Of a stretch of DNA of 64,000 bases, positions 25,729 through 36,582 are shown piece after piece. Below the pieces are notes generated by a model. The model did not search any database. It was not told where the DNA came from and worked only from the letters and a program-made list of their open reading frames with translations. The translations under genes were made by a program, and so were the position numbers. Origin of the DNA: Ruania alba (GTDB lineage Bacteria; Actinomycetota; Actinomycetes; Actinomycetales; Beutenbergiaceae); NCBI RefSeq assembly GCF_900105765.1, contig NZ_FNTX01000002.1, positions 2,356,001 through 2,420,000 of the forward strand, given 5' to 3'. Positions within the stretch are counted from its first letter, which is position 1, and every line of letters begins with the position of its first letter.

Positions 25729-25859
25729 CCCGGGCTCTGAGCTGCGTTGCTGTGCTGGGGGCCTGAGGTGGTCTAGTGCGGGTACAGGTTCGGGGGCGAG
25801 GGTGCATTGTTGTCGCGCCCTACCTGAACGTCCGCGTGATGAACGATTGACATTCGAGA

Positions 25860-25880
25860 GAGGCGCGCGGTTCGCGCCTC
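25860..25880 (+). promoter_or_regulatory. Hairpin immediately upstream of the GH106-like gene
   Basis: GAGGCGCG, a five-base loop and CGCGCCTC form a perfect 8-bp stem. It is flanked by two direct copies of CGAGAGAGG (25855-25863 and 25880-25888), the second of which contains the Shine-Dalgarno sequence of the gene. It could shield the ribosome-binding site, attenuate read-through from the permeases or stabilise a processed mRNA end. Role inferred only. Confidence 0.45.
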
Positions 25881-25894
25881 GAGAGAGGAAGAAG

Positions 25895-28800
25895 ATGACC
25901 CCCGAACTCGACAAGTTGTTTGTCGACCCGCCCCGGACCTTCGGGCCGAATCCGCTGTGGTGGTGGTCGGGTGCGGCTGTGACGGCTGAACGACTAGCGT
26001 GGCAGATGGAGCGTTATGACGAGGGGGGGATTCATAATCTTGTGGTTATCAATCTGGCGCCGGCCGGTCCTCTGTTCAGTTCGGTCCCTGATGACCCGCC
26101 ATGGTTCAGTGAGACGTGGTGGGACCGTTTCGTCCAAACATGCGAGATCGCGTCCGACCGTGACATGAAGGTGTGGTTCTATGACCAGATCGGATTCTCG
26201 GGTGCGAATATTCAGGGCCGGATCACCGGCGAGCACCCTGAGGCTACCGGTAGCACGCTGAGGTCACGTATTGTTCGGGTTGATGGCGGGGGCGTTCTGC
26301 TTGACGGCAACGAAACACTGATCGGGGCCTATCGTCTCTCAGACGAAGGGCGCCTCGAGTGTTCCTCGGACGGTAAGGTCGAAGGGGTCGGTACCGGGAG
26401 CGAGGTTCGGATCGTCACTGTTGTACCCACCGCGTTCGACTATCTTGACCCATCGGCCGTGAGTCTGCTGTTGGATCTGGTGCACGGGGAGTACGACCGG
26501 AGAGTTCCGGAGTATCTGGGGAGTGTGATTCCTGGCAGTTTCCAGGATGAAGCGCCTGCGACGAACGCTTGGACACCGCGACTCGCGGAGGAGTTCACGG
26601 CACGCTGTGGCTATGACATCCTTGACCATCTCCCGTCGCTCTTCACAGGGACAAGCGCAGAAGCGCAGAAGATTCGCAGTGACTACTACGCTGTGAGGGG
26701 TGCACTGGCGGAGGCATCATTCTTCCGGCCGCTAGCTGAATGGCACAGTGAGAGAGGGATGATCATCGGTGCTGACCAATTCAATCCCGCTCGCGCCGGA
26801 TATCCCACTCAGTCGACGCAGCTGTACACCGACTACATGCGTACCCATCGCTGGTATGGCGCGGCTGGGAGTGACCATCAGGGCGACTCGAAGATCCATT
26901 CCTCCCTTGCTCATCTCTACGAGCATGAGCGAGTATGGATCGAGTCGTTCCACTCGAGTGGGTGGGGTGGGACATTGGAGGATACCTACGACTGGCTTCT
27001 ACCGTTTTTCCGGAGTGGCGCAAACCTCTACAACCCTCACGCCAGTTATTTTGGCACAGCGGGAGGTTGGTTTGAATGGGCGCCCCCGTCGACCGACTGG
27101 CGCCAGCCGTACTGGCAGCAGTATCCGGCTTTCTCGCGGGCGGTTGCGCGAATCGCATCGATGCTGTCATGGGGAACGTATGATGCGGATGTCACTGTGC
27201 TGTATCCCACGAGTACCGCGCAGGCGGGGCTCACCCTCGATGTCCCCGTGGACCACTTCGGTGATGGCCAGATCGGGACGGACGCCTACGAAGACGTCGA
27301 CAGCGCACAAACGGTATATCTCGACCTGGTCGGCACCAACGACTGGTTCGATACGCGTATTGGTGCTCTCGACCGAGCTCGTGTTGCCTTTGACGTCATC
27401 GACGACGACTCCCTTGTTCGCGAGGCGTTGGATGGCGCTTCTATCGTAGTAGGTGCGCAGCGCTATCGTGCGGTGATCATTCCATCGATGACCGTGCTTG
27501 AAGAGGCGACGGCGCGGCGGTTGGTTGAACTGTTGGATGCCGGGGGGCGCGTGGCCGTTGTCGGGATGGCTCCTCGTCTGGCGGCGGGCCGCTCCGGTGA
27601 TGACAATGTCGTGCAGGCGCTGTCCGATCACCCCAGTGTTGAGCGATACGGGAACGTCGTGACCGCTGCTGAGGCGTTCCAGAGCCTTGCAGGTCATGCG
27701 GTGAGCGACGTTCCGGTACTCGTTCGTCGGGACGGCATGAACGGCCTTGCCTTCGTCACGGGCGCGTTCCCGAATGCGAGTGGGGACCGTCGAACGGAGG
27801 AGACGGGTTGGCTGTGGCCGGACAACACGTTCGACTCGAACCTGTATGCGGATAACAGATGGCTACGAGTGGCGGCGCCAGTGGTGGAAGCCACCGTCTT
27901 GAACCCGGCGACGGGTGAGAGATCAACTCCGGTCATCGAACCAGACGGAGATGGCAGCATCCTCCGATTCGTCACGGGAGGCGCACCTGCGGTTCTGGTC
28001 ACCTGGACCGAGGGTGACAAATCTGCGTCGCGTCCACGGCCGGAGGTAGGGCCAGGTGGGAGCTGCACGGTCGACGGCCCGTGGACGGGAACACTCGTTC
28101 CGACGCTCGACAACACGTGGGGCGACCTCGCCCTCCCGATGGGTACTGATGTCGACGCACTGCAGATCTGGTCGTTCGACTGGCGCGAAGGTCGGTGTGT
28201 GGAATGGCGGCGGGCGAAGGCCACGTACGGCAACCGCGTGCGGAAGCAGGGGCCGATCCCGATCGCGGAGGCGCCCGATCCGCTTGACTCCTGTGCGGTT
28301 GCGCGGATCAGGGCTGGAGAGCAGAACCTCGCCGAGGATTGGGAAGTCTCGGTGTTCTCGAGTAGTCGCGGTATCGAGAAGCCTGGGCTTGGGGCGCTAG
28401 GGAACAAGGGACTTGTTCCGGAGGAGTTCATTCACGTAGGAGTGCCCAAGGCCGGTGAAACCGCAGTGGTCAGAACCCTCGTCGAGAGCGATGTGCGTGG
28501 CGAAGCGGACCTTCTCGTGTACGCGGGGCAGAGAAGACAGTCTGGTGGAACGGCACCGAGGTGGCGCGCACCGATGCCAACATCGCGACCGCCCGCGTCA
28601 CGGTCGAGGACGTGAATGTTCTCGAGTATCGATTGGGCGAGAGTCGCAACGCTCCCGGAGCCACAGCCCGCGGCGACGAGTATCTTGGCTGTGGCTTCAC
28701 TGTCACCGCGCCCGACACGTTCGAAAGCCGTCCTGCCTTCATGCGCCTCCCCGAGGGTCTTGTTCCGGACGGTGCGGTGAGGTTTGAGTCGTCCGTGACG

Positions 28801-29850
28801 ATGCCAGCGGATGCCGAATGGTCGCAGCTCGTCGTCGGCGCCGCCGTCGGCGTCACGGTCCTCATCGATGACGTGGTTGTCGCGCGACAGGCGAAGGTTG
28901 AGTACTACGAGTCCGAGTGGGGCGCCAACCCGGCGTATTTCTCACACGACATCGCTGACCTGCTGACGGCCGGATCGCATACGGTCACGATCGTCGCGCA
29001 AAGCGTGAAGGCGAACGATGTTCTCTTCGTCGACCTTGTCACAACGGTCGGGGAGCGCACTGTCACTCTCGTGAGCGAACCCGGATGGACCGTGACGACC
29101 GGCGGCGTCCAAGGTCAGACGATCGAGCACCTCGGCCACTGGGACGACCCGGCGTCGACTCGTGCTGCGCTACGAGCGCACCCGCTTCCTGACGCCGAAT
29201 GGCTCAGGGGAGTGCCTCTCGTTGGTCGGACCGTACCCGGCTTCCGGACGTCCGACTCGGTCGAGCGCCGTGCGCAGTATTACCGCTTCACCGTGCCGGC
29301 CGGTACGCGCGAACTCGAGATCCCGATGATCGTCGACGCTCGCGTGAGAGTTGACGGTCGCGAAGTCGGGTGCGAGGAGGGGCGCGCCGTCCTCGACGCA
29401 CCGCTCAAGACACCGAGCAGGGTGGAGATCGAGACGGACGAAACGGCCTTCCACCGCGGTGGTTCGGCCTTCACAGGTCCAATCCGTGCGACGGTCGACG
29501 AAGCTCCCATTCAGCTCGGCGACTGGCGGGCAATTGGCCTCGCGTCATGGTCCGGGGGGGTGCAATACAGCACCGACATCGAGGTTCGCGCCGATGCGAC
29601 GGCTGCCGTGCTCGATCTTGGTGGCGCAAGGGGAAGCATGCGCATCGAGATCGATGGCGACGTGGTTGCTGATCTGTTCTGCGCGCCCTACCGCGTGGAT
29701 ATCGGTGATCGGCGAGGACTCTTGCACGTGACCGTCACAGTCAACAACACGTTGGGTCCGTTCCTCCATGAGTCGACGCCGACGTCGTGGGTGTTCCCTT
29801 CCCAGATGGCTTCCGGACTCTACGGTCCGGTGACTTTGCACATGCAATGA
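25895..29850 (+). pseudogene. GH106-like (alpha-L-rhamnosidase-type) glycosyl hydrolase, frameshifted as given
   Basis: Very large hydrolase (1318 residues after repair), similar to putative alpha-L-rhamnosidases of family GH106. The N-terminal PPRTFGPNPLWWWSG and WQMERYDEGGIHNLVV, then KVWFYDQIGFSGANIQGRI and ERVWIESFHSSGWGGT, belong to the catalytic barrel; the C-terminal part is beta-sandwich-like. No signal peptide is seen, so it should act on imported oligosaccharides. The first frame ends near 28615 after unrelated residues. The second frame (to 29850) continues with KTVWWNGTEVARTD. One extra G in the tract at 28525-28528 joins them as VYAGAEKTVWWNG. The start is the ATG at 25895 behind GAGGAAG. 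It closes the LacI-controlled operon, unless it has its own promoter. Confidence 0.82.
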
Positions 29851-30185
29851 CCCCGTCATACCGGGGCAGAACTCCATCGTGAGGCACCCGGATCCCTTGA
29901 CCCATCCTCGGAGCAAGGGTTCCCGACCTTGCGAAGGCTCAATCCGAAGCGATAGGTCGAATGTCTCAGGCTTGGGCAACGCAACTCACGACATCTGATC
30001 AGGTATCTGTCCGGTTCTCGGTCTTCGCCTCACTGGTATCGGGGCGATCCTCGGCCGACCCGCCTTGATATTGTCGGGCTACAAGCACAGAGGACAGATG
30101 ACACCTCGGCTCACCCGACCCAAGAGCAGAACGGGTGACCCGATGGGGTTCACCCGTTCGCGGAGTCGTGAACTGTCACAAAGGG
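29851..30185. other. Intergenic region between the hydrolase gene and tRNA-Arg
   Basis: A 5-bp GC hairpin (CCCCG/CGGGG, 29851-29866) directly after the stop codon may act as a weak terminator. No gene, repeat of the tRNA 3' end or integrase was recognised in the rest. Confidence 0.4.
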
Positions 30186-30258
30186 TGCCCCCGGCGGGAT
30201 TCGAACCCACGACCTTCTGCTCCGGAGGCAGACGCTCTATCCACTGAGCTACAGGGGC
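30186..30258 (-). tRNA. tRNA-Arg (anticodon CCG)
   Basis: Reads codon CGG. The minus strand folds as a full cloverleaf of 73 bases. The acceptor stem is GCCCCTG paired with CGGGGGC with one wobble, discriminator A. The D arm contains AGCTCAGTGGATAGAGC, the anticodon stem TCTGC/GCAGA surrounds the loop CTCCGGA, and the T arm carries GGTTCGAATCC. CCA is not encoded. Confidence 0.96.
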
Positions 30259-30427: not shown

Positions 30428-31060
30428 ATGACACAGGCACCCGGGACCAACGACCCGACCCCGCCACCCGGACCGGAACCAGGAGCGCCGTCGGGAAGGC
30501 GTGGAGCGCTCGCGGTGGTCGGTGCCGTCGTGGGCGGACTGGCACTGCTCGCCGCACTGATCGTCGGCGCGGTGGTGCTGGTCGACTCCCGGGACGAGCC
30601 GATCGAGACCGATCCCACGCCCACGGCTAGCGACACTGCCCCGGAGCCTGCCGGTGAGTTGCACGAGATGCTGCTCGAGGACGCCGATGTGGTCACCGAC
30701 GCCGACGGAGAGACGTGGCTTCTGGACGAAGCGGGCTGGGTCGAGTCGCCGGATACCAGCGCAGAGGCGGTCGAGGCCTACACCGGAACGTTCGCCGCTG
30801 ACTCCGGGGCGGTCACCCTCACGGCGCTCTCCTTCGCCGACGAGGAGGCTGCCACGGCGTACCTGGACCAGGTACGTGAGGATTCCGGGGAGCCGGACTA
30901 CGAGGGTGCAGTCTGGGAAGACGGCAGCGGCACCCGCTTCGACTACGAGTCGGGGGAGGAGAGCACCGTGTACTGGCGCGACGACGCCTCGATGCTGGTC
31001 TTCTCGGTTGCCGGGCCCACCGGGGCTGCTGAGTCCTTCTACGCGGGATTGCCGTTCTGA
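30428..31060 (+). CDS. Conserved-type membrane-anchored hypothetical protein
   Basis: Not recognised. The 210 residues start with a Pro-rich cytoplasmic tail (TPPPGPEPGAPSG). One strong membrane span follows at about residues 27-52 (LAVVGAVVGGLALLAALIVGAVVLV), then a very acidic extracellular domain rich in Asp, Glu and Tyr. The domain has an alternating beta/alpha pattern (ALSFADEEAATAYLDQV, TVYWRDDASMLVFSVAG). It follows GAGAGGAGA at a good spacing. It precedes the DALR-domain gene in the same direction. Confidence 0.7.
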   Translation: MTQAPGTNDPTPPPGPEPGAPSGRRGALAVVGAVVGGLALLAALIVGAVVLVDSRDEPIETDPTPTASDTAPEPAGELHEMLLEDADVVTDADGETWLLDEAGWVESPDTSAEAVEAYTGTFAADSGAVTLTALSFADEEAATAYLDQVREDSGEPDYEGAVWEDGSGTRFDYESGEESTVYWRDDASMLVFSVAGPTGAAESFYAGLPF

Positions 31061-31095
31061 CGTCCGACGCTGAGCGCGCCGAGCCGCCACCGATC

Positions 31096-31836
31096 GTGTG
31101 GCCGGATGACCTTGCCGCCGCGATCGCCCGCGTGCTCGCCATTCCGGCGGGGGCGCCGGTCCCGTTGCGGGCGGGCACCCACGCCTCCGCCGACTGGCAC
31201 ACCGACGCTGCTCGGACGCTCATCCGATGGCTCGACCCCGAGGCGGCCGCAGATCCCGACACGGTCGATGCGTGGCAGAACGCTACCGCGCGCCGCCTGG
31301 CTGACGGGTTGGACTCCCACGACGACGTCGTCCGGGCGTGGGCAGACGGGGCGACGGTACGGGTCGCCCTCACCTCAACCTGCCTCCTGCGGGTCGTTCC
31401 CGCTGTGCTGTCGGAGTGGCCCGACACTCCACGGCGGACCGGCGAAAGGCGTGCAGACGCCGATGCGCTCAGCGACGTCCGGTTCGCGCATGCCCGCGCC
31501 CGGAACGTCTCCCGGATCGCGCGAGCCCACAGAGTCGCCCCTGCGGTCCTCCCAGGCGTGGCGACCGAGCTCGAGACACCGGACCGGCGCCTCCTGGTGG
31601 CCCTGGCCGGCTCCCGGTCCGCCCTGAGGGTCGGGACCGTGCGTGCCGTGCACGCGCACGCCCGGGCGCTCACCTCGGCCTATCACCTCTGGTACGCGAG
31701 CACGAGGACGGCTCCTCGCGCCGCCGACGAGATAACCTCGATCCATCGCACTCGACTTGCCCTTAACGATGCGGTCGCCGTGGCCCTCGCCACGGAGTTG
31801 ACCGCCGTCGGCCTCGACGCCCCGGAGCACCTGTGA
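31096..31836 (+). CDS. Freestanding DALR anticodon-binding domain protein (ArgRS C-terminal-like)
   Basis: The C-terminal half (from about residue 133: VRFAHARARNVSRIARAH ... RTRLALNDAVAVALATELTAVGLDAPEHL) resembles the helical DALR anticodon-binding domain of arginyl-tRNA synthetase. No HIGH or KMSKS catalytic motifs are present in the 246 residues. The N-terminal part is helical and unassigned. Its GTG 31096 has no good ribosome-binding site, and the frame is open upstream across the previous stop, so the true start may differ. lysA overlaps its stop (GTGA). argS commonly sits upstream of lysA in actinobacteria, which makes this a probable truncated paralogue. Confidence 0.75.
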   Translation: MWPDDLAAAIARVLAIPAGAPVPLRAGTHASADWHTDAARTLIRWLDPEAAADPDTVDAWQNATARRLADGLDSHDDVVRAWADGATVRVALTSTCLLRVVPAVLSEWPDTPRRTGERRADADALSDVRFAHARARNVSRIARAHRVAPAVLPGVATELETPDRRLLVALAGSRSALRVGTVRAVHAHARALTSAYHLWYASTRTAPRAADEITSIHRTRLALNDAVAVALATELTAVGLDAPEHL

Positions 31837-33167
31837 CACATCCCCACGCCCCCGGCCTGTGGCCGCAGTCCACCGACCTCATCGACGGCGCGCTGCACCT
31901 GGGTGGTACACCAGTGACCGCGCTGGCGGACACGTTCGGGACGCCGTCCTACGTCCTCGATGTTCCGGGCCTGCGAGCGAGGGCGGCCCACTACCGGGCC
32001 GCGTTCACCGACGCCTTCGCGCCGGCGGAGGTGCAGGTGTACTACGCGGGCAAGGCTTTCCTGTCCACCGCTGTTGCGCGCTGGGTGCACGCCGAAGGAT
32101 TGCGGATCGACACCGCGTCGGCAGGCGAGCTCACCACCGCGCTCGCGGCCGGGATCGACGGCCGGGACATCGGCCTGCACGGCAACAACAAGTCCCGCGA
32201 TGAGATCGACCTCGCGCTGGAGCACGGCGTCGGCCGGATCGTGATCGACTCACTGCCGGAGATCGAGCTGGTGGCCCAGCGTGCGGCCGCCCGCGGGGTC
32301 CGTGCACCGGTGATGGTGCGCGTCACCACCGGCGTGCACGCCGGCGGCCACGACTTCATCGCCACCGCGCACGAGGACCAGAAATTCGGCCTGTCCCTCG
32401 CCGGCGGAGCCGCGATGACGGCCCTGGAGCGCATCCTGGAACTGCCGGAGCTGGAACTGCTCGGCCTGCACTCCCACATCGGTTCCCAGATCCTCGACGC
32501 GGACGGGTTCGCTGCTGCTGCCGCGGCACTGCTCGGGCTGCGCGCCGACCTCGCTGCACGCACCGGTCACATGGTCACCGAGCTCGACCTCGGTGGCGGG
32601 TACGGCATCGCGTACACCCCGGAGGAGACTGCGGTGGACGTGGTGGCCGTGGCGTCCTCGCTCGCGCACGCATGCCGGTCCGAGTGCGAACGACTCGGCA
32701 CCCCGATGCCGGCGTTCTCTTTCGAGCCCGGCCGCGCCATCGTCGGGCCGAGCATGATCACGCTGTACAAGGTGGGCACGGTCAAGTCGGTCCAGTTGGA
32801 CGGCGGCTCGCGCCTGTATGTGTCTGTGGACGGTGGCATGAGTGACAACATCCGCCCCGCGTTGTACGGCGCCGCTTACCACGCCGAACTGGCCTCCCGG
32901 GCGTCGGACGCACCGGGTGTGGCCGCGCGCGTCGTCGGAAAGCACTGCGAGAGCGGAGACATCGTGGTGCGTGACGTCGAGCTTCCGGCCGATGTTCGCG
33001 CCGGCGATCTGCTCGCGGTCCCGGCCACCGGCGCCTACGGACGCTCGATGGCAAGCCAGTACAACCTGCTTCCGCGCCCCGGCGTGGTGGCGGTCGGCGA
33101 TGGTGCCCCGCGTGAGATCGTCCGTCGGGAGACCCTGCAGGACCTGCTCGCGCTCGATCTCGGCTGA
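31833..33167 (+). CDS. lysA: Diaminopimelate decarboxylase
   Basis: PLP enzyme making L-lysine from meso-diaminopimelate, the last step of lysine synthesis. The 444 residues have a fold-III barrel with the PLP Lys74 in VYYAGKAF, the HSHIGSQ motif, a Gly-rich phosphate site LGGGYGI, FEPGRAIV, and CESGDIVV with the catalytic Cys at the dimer interface. The GTG start overlaps the stop of the DALR gene. The homoserine/threonine genes follow, the usual order in actinobacteria. Confidence 0.97.
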   Translation: MTHPHAPGLWPQSTDLIDGALHLGGTPVTALADTFGTPSYVLDVPGLRARAAHYRAAFTDAFAPAEVQVYYAGKAFLSTAVARWVHAEGLRIDTASAGELTTALAAGIDGRDIGLHGNNKSRDEIDLALEHGVGRIVIDSLPEIELVAQRAAARGVRAPVMVRVTTGVHAGGHDFIATAHEDQKFGLSLAGGAAMTALERILELPELELLGLHSHIGSQILDADGFAAAAAALLGLRADLAARTGHMVTELDLGGGYGIAYTPEETAVDVVAVASSLAHACRSECERLGTPMPAFSFEPGRAIVGPSMITLYKVGTVKSVQLDGGSRLYVSVDGGMSDNIRPALYGAAYHAELASRASDAPGVAARVVGKHCESGDIVVRDVELPADVRAGDLLAVPATGAYGRSMASQYNLLPRPGVVAVGDGAPREIVRRETLQDLLALDLG

Positions 33168-33309: not shown

Positions 33310-34617
33310 ATGAACGACGGCGCCCCCGCCACCCTCCGGGTGGCCGTGCTCGGTTGCGGTGTGGTCGGCACCGAGGTGGTCCGAGGACTCCTCGACAATG
33401 CCGTCGAGCTCCGTTCCCGTACCGGTACCCAGCTCGATCTCGTCGGCATCGGCGTGCGTTCGACTGCGACGCCACGAGATGCGGTCGTCCCGGTCGACCT
33501 GTTGACCGAGGACCTGACGGGCCTGGTCGAGCGGGCCGACCTGGTGATCGAGCTGATGGGCGGCATCGAGCCGGCCCGAGCTCTGATCCTGGACGCCCTG
33601 GCCGCAGGCGCGAGCGTGGTGACGGCGAACAAGGCCCTCCTGGCCCAGCACGGGCCCACGTTGTACGAGGCTGCCGACGCCTCCCGGGTGGACCTCTTCT
33701 ACGAGGCTGCCGTGGCCGGTGCGGTCCCGGTGGTGCGTGGGGTGCGCGAATCGCTCGCGGGCGACAAGATCACCCGGGTGCTCGGGATCGTCAACGGCAC
33801 CACGAACTACATCTTGGACGAGATGACGTCCAACGGGCTCGACTTCGGCACCGCTCTGGCGCAGGCCCAGGATCTCGGTTACGCGGAGGCGGACCCGACC
33901 GCTGATGTCGAGGGATTCGACGCTGCCGCCAAAGCCACCATCCTCGCGTCGCTCGCGTTCCACTCCCGGACCTCCATGGATGACGTCCCGGTGCAGGGGA
34001 TCACCTCGATCACCCCGGAGGACATCTCGGCTGCGGCGCAGACCGGACATGTGATCAAGATGCTCGCGATCGCTGAGCAGGGCGAGCACGACGGCATCCG
34101 AGGCCTGGCCGTGCGCGTGCACCCGGCCCTGGTGCCCGAGACCCACCCGCTGGCCAGCGTTCGTGGCCCGTACAACGCTGTGTTCGTGGAGGCCGAGGCC
34201 GCCGGCACGCTGATGTTCTACGGGGCTGGGGCCGGGGGAGCGGCGACCTCCAGCGCCGTTCTCGGCGACGTCGTCGCCGCCGCACGTGACCGGGTGAACG
34301 GAGGGAAGGCGCCCTCGGAGTCGGCCCATGCCGCCTTGCCCGCGATGCCGGCCCAGGCGGTGCACACGCGCTACCAGATGCGCCTGGACGTGCTCGACGT
34401 GCCCGGCGTCCTGGCCGAGATCGCTGCCGCCGTGGCTGCCCACGGTGTCTCGATCGAGACGGTCCGGCAGGGGGTGCGGGACCCGGAGGAGGGTGCCGCC
34501 CTGATGATCGTCACTCACTCCGCCAGCGAGTCCGCGCTCGCGGCGACGGTGGCCGACCTCGATACCCTCGATGTGGTCGAGCGGATCACCTCGATCCTGC
34601 GTGTGGAAGGAAACTGA
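33310..34617 (+). CDS. hom: Homoserine dehydrogenase
   Basis: Reduces aspartate semialdehyde to homoserine with NAD(P)H, the branch point to threonine and methionine. The 435 residues comprise a Rossmann domain ([12 protein letters not shown] at residues 13-24), the catalytic domain with [12 protein letters not shown] and a [16 protein letters not shown] segment, and a C-terminal ACT domain (about 355-430) for allosteric control, presumably by threonine. ATG 33310 follows GAAGGAG. The thrC ATG overlaps its stop codon. Confidence 0.97.
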
Positions 34618-35678
34618 TGGCCAAGCCGTGGCGTGGCGTGATCGCCGAGTACGCCGACCGACTTCCGATCGAGGATGGCGACCCGGTCGTCACCCTGGGT
34701 GAGGGCGGCACCCCGCTGGTGCCGGCCCCGGCCCTGTCGTCGACGACCGGTGCCCAGGTCTACCTCAAGGTGGAGGGGGCGAATCCGACCGGCTCCTTCA
34801 AGGACCGCGGCATGACGATGGCGATGAGCAAGGTGGCCGGCACGGGCACCGAGGCGGTCGTGTGTGCCTCGACCGGGAACACCTCCGCCTCGGCGGCCGC
34901 GTACGCCGTTCGCGCCGGGCTGGGATGCGCCGTCGTGCTCCCGCACGGCAAGATCGCGGCCGGCAAGCTCGCCCAGGCGATCGTGCACGGCGCCACGCTG
35001 CTGGCCGTGGACGGCAACTTCGACGACTGCCTGCGGATCGTGCGCGAGCTCGCCGACTCCTATCCGGTGGCCCTGGTGAACTCGGTGAACCCGTACCGGC
35101 TGCAGGGGCAGAAGACTGCAGCCTTCGAGGTCGTGGACGCCCTCGGCGACGCGCCGGCCATCCACGTGCTGCCGGTGGGCAACGCAGGCAACATCTCCGC
35201 CTACTGGATGGGCTACCGCGAGTACGCCGCCGATGGTCTGGCCTCCCGCACCCCACAGATGTGGGGTGTCCAGGCCGACGGCGCGGCGCCGTTGGTCAAG
35301 GGCGCGCCCGTGGAGTTCCCTGAGACGGTGGCCACCGCCATCCGGATCGGGAACCCGGCTTCCTGGACCTTGGCGACCGCCGCCCGGGACGATTCCGGTG
35401 GGCGTATCGATGCCGTGAGTGACGCCGAGATCCTCGAGGCTCAAGCGCTGATCGCCCGTGAGGTCGGGGTGTTCGTGGAACCCGCCTCGGCGGCGAGCGT
35501 GGCCGGCCTGCTGGCGCGTGCGCAGGCAGGTGAGGTGCCCGAGGGTGCCACCGTGGTGTGCACGGTGACCGGGAATGGCCTCAAGGACACCGCTACCGCC
35601 CTGGGCGGGCGGGATGTGGACCCGCAGGTGATCGGGACCGACGTGGCCGATGCGGCCCGCGCCCTCGGCCTCGCCTGA
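34617..35678 (+). CDS. thrC: Threonine synthase
   Basis: PLP fold-II lyase converting O-phosphohomoserine to threonine. The 353 residues include the PLP-binding Lys62 in [11 protein letters not shown], the SGN-type loop [13 protein letters not shown] and the phosphate-binding PVGNAGNI. The length matches the short actinobacterial type. It is coupled to hom through a TGATG overlap and is followed by thrB one base after its stop. Confidence 0.97.
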
Positions 35679-35679
35679 C

Positions 35680-36582
35680 ATGAGGCTCGTTCGCGACGAG
35701 GTGCGGGTACGGGTGCCCGCCACCAGTGCCAACCTCGGCCCCGGGTTCGATGCCTTCGGGCTCGCCCACACCGTGCATGACCAGGTGCGAGTACGTGCCA
35801 CGACCGGCGCTACCGAGGTGCGGGTGATCGGGGAGGGCGCCGGAGAGGTCTCCGACGGTGACGACCACCTCGTGGTGCGCGCGTTGCGTGCTGGGCTCGA
35901 GCACGTCGGCGCACCGCAGGCCGGATTCTCTCTTGACTGTGAGAATGCGATCCCGCACGGCCGAGGACTGGGCTCCAGTGCGGGAGCCGTTGTGGCCGGT
36001 CTCGTCGCGGCACGTGGCCTGATCAGCGAACCGGAGGCGTTGGACGACCAGGTGCTGCTCGAGCTGGCGACCGAGTTCGAAGGGCACCCCGACAATGCGG
36101 CGCCGGCACTGCTCGGAGGAGCCACCGTCGCGTGGATGCAGGGGCGAGCTGCCCGCGCCGCGCGGATCGAGGTCAACCCGCAGATCGCACTCACCGTGCT
36201 GATCCCGACCGAGCGGTTGCCCACGAAGCGCGCCCGCGCGGCATTGCCAGCCACCATCTCGCACGCCGATGCTGCGTTCAATGCGGGGCGTGCGGGGCTG
36301 CTCACCCTGGCACTGAGCACCCGACCGGATCTGCTGATGGCGGCCACCGAGGACCGCCTGCACCAGACGCAGCGGGCCGACGCGATGATGGCGACCATCG
36401 CCCTGGTAGGGCGGTTGCGAGAGGCAGGCCATCCGGCGGTCGTCTCCGGGGCAGGCCCGACCGTGCTGGTCTTCAGCGAGCTGGAGCACCGGGACCTGGA
36501 GGCCGTCGGGCTCGCCGGGGCAGGGGAGACCTGGACGGTGCGGCGGCCGACCATCGATACCGCCGGGGCACAGCTCCTCTGA
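35680..36582 (+). CDS. thrB: Homoserine kinase
   Basis: GHMP-family kinase producing O-phosphohomoserine. The 300-residue protein has the family motif 1 PATSANLGPGFDAFG, the ATP-binding motif IPHGRGLGSSAGAVVAG, and motif 3 AVVSGAGPTVLVF near the C-terminus. The ATG at 35680 directly follows the thrC stop, so the three genes hom-thrC-thrB form one operon. Confidence 0.97.
   Translation: MRLVRDEVRVRVPATSANLGPGFDAFGLAHTVHDQVRVRATTGATEVRVIGEGAGEVSDGDDHLVVRALRAGLEHVGAPQAGFSLDCENAIPHGRGLGSSAGAVVAGLVAARGLISEPEALDDQVLLELATEFEGHPDNAAPALLGGATVAWMQGRAARAARIEVNPQIALTVLIPTERLPTKRARAALPATISHADAAFNAGRAGLLTLALSTRPDLLMAATEDRLHQTQRADAMMATIALVGRLREAGHPAVVSGAGPTVLVFSELEHRDLEAVGLAGAGETWTVRRPTIDTAGAQLL

Follow-up and report, generated by a model that had tools for sequence, protein, structure and literature searches.

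The question raised by this locus of Ruania alba is what a frame that ends like ArgRS, and that stands in the place of argS directly upstream of lysA, could be doing without the catalytic core of the enzyme. The gene lies in a stretch of 64,000 nucleotides (contig NZ_FNTX01000002.1, positions 2,356,001 to 2,420,000 of the forward strand), here called the window, whose first letter is position 1. The most likely answer, held with modest confidence, is that the gene descends from the resident argS and encodes a non-catalytic protein acting as a tRNA-binding accessory factor; a coupling scaffold for lysA comes second. The locus contains the following features.

30184–30258, minus strand: tRNA-Arg(CCG) gene, an inherited neighbour (ARAGORN; synteny in the family and in Sanguibacter)
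30428–31060, plus strand: upstream gene, 210 aa, without a clear family and outside the system (ORF list, family searches)
31096–31836, plus strand: core-less ArgRS-derived gene, NrtL-like, GTG start uncertain, 246 aa (ORF list, profile matches, dN/dS, AF2)
31096–31422, plus strand: N-terminal ArgRS domain, residues 1–109, the part that grips the D-loop of the tRNA in true ArgRS (hhalign, VIA-align)
31423–31476, plus strand: junction left by the missing catalytic core, which spans about 300 residues in full argS (alignment with full argS)
31477–31833, plus strand: DALR anticodon-binding domain, residues 128–246, ending in APEHL, not APERM (Pfam, HMM)
31833–31836, plus strand: GTGA overlap of the core-less gene's stop with the GTG start of lysA (sequence)
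31833–33167, plus strand: lysA, diaminopimelate decarboxylase (TIGR01048, 426 bits)
33310–34617, plus strand: homoserine dehydrogenase (family search)
34617–35678, plus strand: thrC, threonine synthase (family search)
35650–36582, plus strand: thrB, homoserine kinase (family search)

Downstream of the core-less gene come, in order, lysA, the homoserine dehydrogenase gene, thrC and thrB, and a four-base overlap with lysA recurs in all 13 genes of the window's family (GTGA in 12, ATGA in one), so that the core-less gene is probably translationally coupled to lysA through its GTGA. The tRNA-Arg(CCG) gene to which the preliminary description drew attention is indeed present, 0.84 kb upstream on the minus strand, but its proximity is inherited synteny without special meaning. 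It stands divergent and upstream of lysA in 19 of the 20 family loci (the twentieth begins at a contig end), and it has no functional meaning for the core-less gene because it is also in place in 11 family members where that gene was not found and, in Sanguibacter, upstream of a full argS that is followed by lysA.

In the alignment, the GTG at which the core-less gene of the window starts coincides with the ancestral argS start, where the four nearest relatives read GTC or CTC (L004–L007; window 31057–31098); three of these four have no ATG, GTG or TTG ahead of the conserved WP(E/D)DL block. G005 and G002 carry a CTG with GAGG about 7 bases upstream, and in genera g7 and g4 (L012–L016) a TACGCT or TACTCT box lies 6–7 bases before the GTG, an arrangement resembling that of leaderless actinobacterial transcripts. 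As for the neighbouring frames, an ORF with a C-terminus like that of the 210-aa upstream gene (Y.GL.F or FYNGL.F) is found just before lysA in 5 of the 11 relatives without the core-less gene, and two overlapping frames of 937 and 429 aa at 25802–29850 (overlap 28561–28615) may represent a single long gene interrupted by a frameshift.

In the window protein the N-terminal domain of ArgRS is joined to its anticodon-binding domain, and the catalytic core is gone. DALR_1 (PF05746) is matched by residues 130–246 at 24.2 bits in hmmscan and 24.6 bits in the genome search, above the gathering cut-off of 22.3, and an HMM trained on the C-domains of full argS scores the protein at 66 bits, where the best of 1180 shuffled sequences reaches 8.2 bits; the same HMM recovers 59/59 core-less proteins at 39 bits or more. 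No catalytic-domain family was matched by the window protein in the Pfam search, in line with the preliminary description of a frame ending in a DALR domain and devoid of catalytic motifs. The NCBIfam argS models match the C-terminal part of the protein only, TIGR00456 (arginine--tRNA ligase) reaches 17.9 bits where its cut-off is 261.65, and nothing in the alignment corresponds to the stretch from about residue 110 to 420 of full argS. The DALR domain does not stand alone, however, as had been thought: hhalign places an ArgRS N-domain on residues 1 to about 109 when the family profile (the 13 sequences of the window's family, window included) is compared with full argS N-domains (probability 97%, E 9e-11, 101 columns), whereas the controls, cross pairings and reversed, lie at 0.1–0.3% (reversed 0.3%). 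A lone DALR domain is thereby ruled out. The N-domain emerges from the family profile and not from the single sequence, since an N-domain HMM leaves it undetected in the window protein alone (−1.4 bits) and likewise in L004 alone; in the window's family the HMM scores are weak overall, 11/13 exceeding the best of 1180 shuffles, and in other lineages all 46 proteins reach 17.7 bits or more. A Pfam survey of the 42 aligned proteins among 53 core-less candidates found DALR_1 in 42/42 and Arg_tRNA_synt_N in 28/42; no further family reached E ≤ 0.01. The best rows obtained with a profile of these 42 proteins match solved ArgRS structures in two blocks, the core being skipped, and the profile also matches 3gdz, an isolated N-domain structure.

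Both domains are predicted to still fold. The AlphaFold2 model of the window protein has a pLDDT of 92.3 and a pTM of 0.89, and its best 15 rows in VIA-align are all ArgRS (Z 20.1–14.8), 14 of them spanning nearly the whole model; the N-domain aligns to the isolated K. pneumoniae ArgRS N-domain 3gdz with Z 8.9 over 97 residues at 3.4 Å. The mutual placement of the two domains may differ from that in ArgRS, because Foldseek gives an rmsd of about 18 Å for both domains together, against 2.8 Å over 214 residues in VIA-align.

The distribution of argS points to where this protein came from. Adjacency of argS and lysA is common, as previously asserted: in an even sample of 89 genomes from the class, a full argS (defined as an open frame of at least 540 codons) stands just before lysA in 64, 59 of them with no other DALR gene found, and a second full argS occurs in 5 of the 64, one of the five (G288) being a weak second match. 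The core-less gene lies at lysA in 11 of the 89 genomes, and another full argS is present in 11/11; the remainder comprises five genomes without a linked gene, five cut by contig ends and four that have no strong lysA match and were left unclassed. The complete argS of the R. alba genome, expected elsewhere by the preliminary description, encodes 608 aa away from lysA, with HVGH and FKTRAG present in the sequence, and falls in another clade than the core-less gene. In genus g16 (14 genomes, taken like those of g94 from 47 hand-picked genomes and not from a random sample), 6 carry a full argS at lysA as their sole DALR gene, and 8 have the core-less gene and an unlinked argS; one of these 8, G130, has a long open frame, yet no core by alignment. 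Within the window's family, the core-less gene was found in 13 of 24 genomes and is dispensable, since it was not found in the other 11.

In a C-domain tree, a separate clade contains 25 of the 26 unlinked argS, and the core-less genes of g16, f36 and f1 (the window's family) fall among lysA-type argS, a class in which lysA adjoins 20/21 order references (L036 has no lysA within its flank) and linkage is assumed, not verified singly, for a further set of 20. The core-less genes of g94 adjoin the unlinked-argS clade (unstarred support 92/77, midpoint root). A second type of argS seems to have arrived and displaced the lysA-type argS, which was then gutted. Derivation from argS, proposed earlier from the position upstream of lysA, is borne out by synteny and trees. 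The remnant of a duplicated argS that had been suggested alongside is probably not what the gene represents: the tree puts the core-less genes with lysA-type argS and the complete argS in a different clade.

Elsewhere in the class, two genomes of g136 (G312 and G390; L143, L144) have both genes in one region, the other argS preceding the DALR domain of the core-less gene by only about 11 kb and 2 kb, respectively. In f36, the full lysA-type argS (L152, L153, L179–L184) have HIGH replaced by TLAS in 8/9 cases (genomes G243, G260, G358, G421, G302, G331, G276, and G340), with NPTGPVTLAS in place of the NPTGP(L/I)H(L/I)G(H/G) of the other full argS inspected; in G243, G260, and G276 this is the only DALR gene found. 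It would be remarkable for an ArgRS to function, as these apparently do, without HIGH.

The core seems to have been deleted several times independently among related bacteria. On a careful tree of N and C domains (84 rows, four of them, including the window, without N-domain columns), at least 7 switches between full and core-less genes are needed. A quick tree of 71 rows (32 core-less), from which 5 long rows and 8/13 family rows were left out, gives 6 changes, and family f36 alone (21 rows) gives 3. A single origin of all core-less genes is ruled out by AU tests (p 6e-7 on the quick tree), as is one origin within f36 (p 2e-4). The breakpoints vary between lineages: in the numbering of the Sanguibacter argS, the sequence is kept to about 170 and again from about 390 in G291 of f36, to about 110 and again from about 360 in G367 of f36, and to about 110–120, resuming between about 390 and 420, in g16 and the window's family. 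A clade uniting the window's family with g94 is rejected at AU p 0.027 in the careful tree, for which 8/13 family rows and 7/11 g94 rows were used. The two origins may nonetheless be one, because a quick tree of 61 rows, built without two of the g94 rows and without any core-less row from further families, joined them with an SH-aLRT of 94.6. In these two possibly separate lineages the C-terminal Met that all 39 full argS share is replaced by Leu (13/13 in the window's family, 11/11 in g94; window 31822–31833), the Arg before the terminal residue by His (13/13 and 8/11), and a fixed His-Arg stands shortly before the conserved Arg/His-Leu pair.

Codon comparisons indicate that the core-less gene is under purifying selection, weaker than that on lysA. 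Whole-protein dN/dS (Nei-Gojobori) ranges from 0.12 to 0.60 across 21 pairs, every one of them with a bootstrap upper limit under 1, values to be taken as guides rather than exact figures because branches are shared among pairs, dS is saturated in some and a non-coding start is possible. Taken by part, the upper limits stay below 1 in 21/21 pairs for the C-terminal part and in 19/21 for the N-terminal part, passing 1 in the remaining two; lysA, as a control in 8 of the 21 pairs, gives 0.07–0.18, below the core-less gene. Third-position changes are in excess in 8/8 tested pairs (z 2.6 to 6.5), and the frame is free of stops in all 13 family sequences. The preliminary description had reckoned with relaxed selection and a decaying fragment; dN/dS is instead clearly below 1, and the pattern argues against both unconstrained decay and a mere spacer.

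Whether the retained domains could still hold a tRNA may be judged from the residues that contact it. One source lists as the main identity points of bacterial tRNA-Arg the D-loop residue A20 and, in the anticodon, C35 together with G/U36 (PMC4742068), and a passage of another assigns the A20 pocket of E. coli ArgRS to the N-terminal domain, F82 and N84 included (PMC8975779). By alignment, and leaving aside the window's family, the Phe of F82 is retained by 31 of 32 core-less proteins and the Asn of N84 by 23 of the 32. In the 9 sequences of the window's family with aligned N-domains, the window protein itself not being alignable there, the Phe occurs in 0/9 and the Asn in 1/9. The mean net charge of the C-domain is +4.8 in the window's family (1 to 10; one member stands at −1 under another cut) and −3.6 in 39 full argS (−7 to 0), with a shift in the same direction in f36, f35, f58, and g94 and none in g16. 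The charge shift and the kept pocket residues fit an RNA-binding role without proving it, and the case for binding of tRNA-Arg is weakest in the window's own lineage, where the D-loop pocket residues are mostly lost.

The history that we favour would start from the resident argS of an argS-lysA operon. A distantly related second argS would have entered and taken over arginylation, and an in-frame internal deletion would then have removed the catalytic core of the old gene, both tRNA-contacting modules and the lysA overlap being retained. The product would grip tRNA-Arg with its C domain at the anticodon loop and its N domain at the D-loop/elbow; it might present tRNA-Arg to another enzyme, in analogy to the vertebrate DALRD3, which presents it to a methyltransferase, or protect or sequester it for such an enzyme, or dampen ArgRS, and the coupling to lysA would tie its amount to the lysine/threonine operon. 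The architecture, the kinship with lysA-type argS, the repeated parallel origin, the purifying selection and the predicted folding all draw their support from sequence, and the repeated parallel loss of the core suggests that the leftover protein has a job of its own. Among the steps beyond these, tRNA binding would be likelier than operon regulation; the balance tips slightly towards it overall, and less so for the window's lineage. Against the favoured reading weigh the eroded D-loop pocket in the window's family, the dispensability of the gene there, a dN/dS above that of lysA, the replaced C-terminal Met and the high Foldseek rmsd.

Several known systems offer points of comparison. In layout the window protein equals NrtL (NCBIfam NF045898, ArgS-related anticodon-binding protein), a family whose name carries no function and which likewise joins the ArgRS N-terminal and anticodon-binding domains without the core; the window protein shows this layout through the family profile, and scores 34.1 bits against NF045898, below the cut-off of 340, with residues 118–246 covering the C-terminal 127 of 327 profile positions. 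The cut-off is passed by 22 of 296 class genomes and by 5 of the 9 hand-picked g94 genomes examined, all 9 of which carry the core-less gene just before lysA and a full argS elsewhere; this NrtL branch and the window's branch are those set apart in the careful tree (AU p 0.027) and joined in one quick tree. No paper on bacterial NrtL or a core-less ArgRS was among the matches listed in the open-licence literature. HisZ is a non-catalytic synthetase derivative that has kept the catalytic-domain fold and dropped the anticodon domain; it resembles the window protein as a synthetase relative reused without aminoacylation, and is its reverse in the domains kept. The bacterial argS-lysA operon occupies the same locus, with tRNA-Arg(CCG) nearby in the loci checked, but argS is complete there and core-less here. 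DALRD3 likewise has a DALR domain without a synthetase core; as an excerpt of its paper describes it, it is confined to vertebrates and works with METTL2 on tRNA-Arg(CCU/UCU), and its authors count among its possible origins a duplicated argS that gave up catalysis while still binding tRNA (PMC7237682). The N-terminal part of DALRD3 is described there as without recognisable motif (PMC7237682), whereas the window protein has the ArgRS N-domain. DALRD3 serves as a working precedent for a core-free DALR protein.

Of the rival explanations, the one that survives best, though we hold it to be unlikely, is that the frame persists chiefly to bring ribosomes to the start of lysA. With the expression signals of lysA lying in its start and its end, a redundant ArgRS could then be dismantled only internally, and selection on its residues would amount to folding and non-toxicity. 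Such a coupling device would account for the overlap with lysA in 13/13 family genes, for deletions that are internal and spare both ends in the lineages aligned, for a dN/dS higher than that of lysA and for the loss of most pocket residues in the window's lineage. It would need few codons at each end, however, and yet 43/43 core-less rows align across both domains, some with internal gaps, an alignment in which the program favours end-to-end placement and for which the HMM scores against shuffles are the firmer test. The D-loop pocket residues are moreover kept in most sequences of other lineages, and 11/24 family members do without the core-less gene, 5 of these 11 with another ORF before lysA.

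A trans-acting sensor, which would bind uncharged tRNA-Arg and tune lysA-hom-thrC-thrB or the upstream transcript by arginine/lysine status, is decidedly doubtful. It has in its favour the operon position and the lysA overlap, together with an argS-lysA cluster of Brevibacterium lactofermentum whose regulation by arginine is announced in a title (Oguiza 1993) and, in an excerpt of a further source, the induction of argS by arginine and its repression by lysine (PMC7923171); the position was inherited from argS, however, and hence is no evidence of function. The regulator linking lysine/threonine synthesis to tRNA charging that the preliminary description had proposed is possible, and operon regulation by tRNA is a guess. 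Least probable by far is a decaying pseudogene, the leftover of a displaced argS heading for loss, for which speak the 11/24 family genomes in which the gene was not found, a series that can be arranged from argS alone through both and core-less plus other argS to the other argS alone, and the four relatives without a standard start codon at the ancestral place, but which is largely refuted by selection (dN/dS and upper limits below 1 in 21/21 pairs, third-position excess in 8/8, stop-free frames in 13/13) and by the confident two-domain fold of the AF2 model.

Selection that no single case could demonstrate can show itself in parallel evolution. At this locus the same deletion has seemingly struck the same gene several times, with a second argS in every sampled case, and it therefore becomes testable whether the RNA-binding parts of a synthetase are useful without the enzyme, and to what end. 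Tentatively, and short of what we would call probable, displacement of argS may repeatedly yield convergent tRNA-Arg-binding proteins, in about six or more actinobacterial lineages, that act on the supply of tRNA-Arg or on the lysine/threonine operon. Displacement followed by core loss would explain the patchy occurrence of “DALR domain” proteins before lysA.
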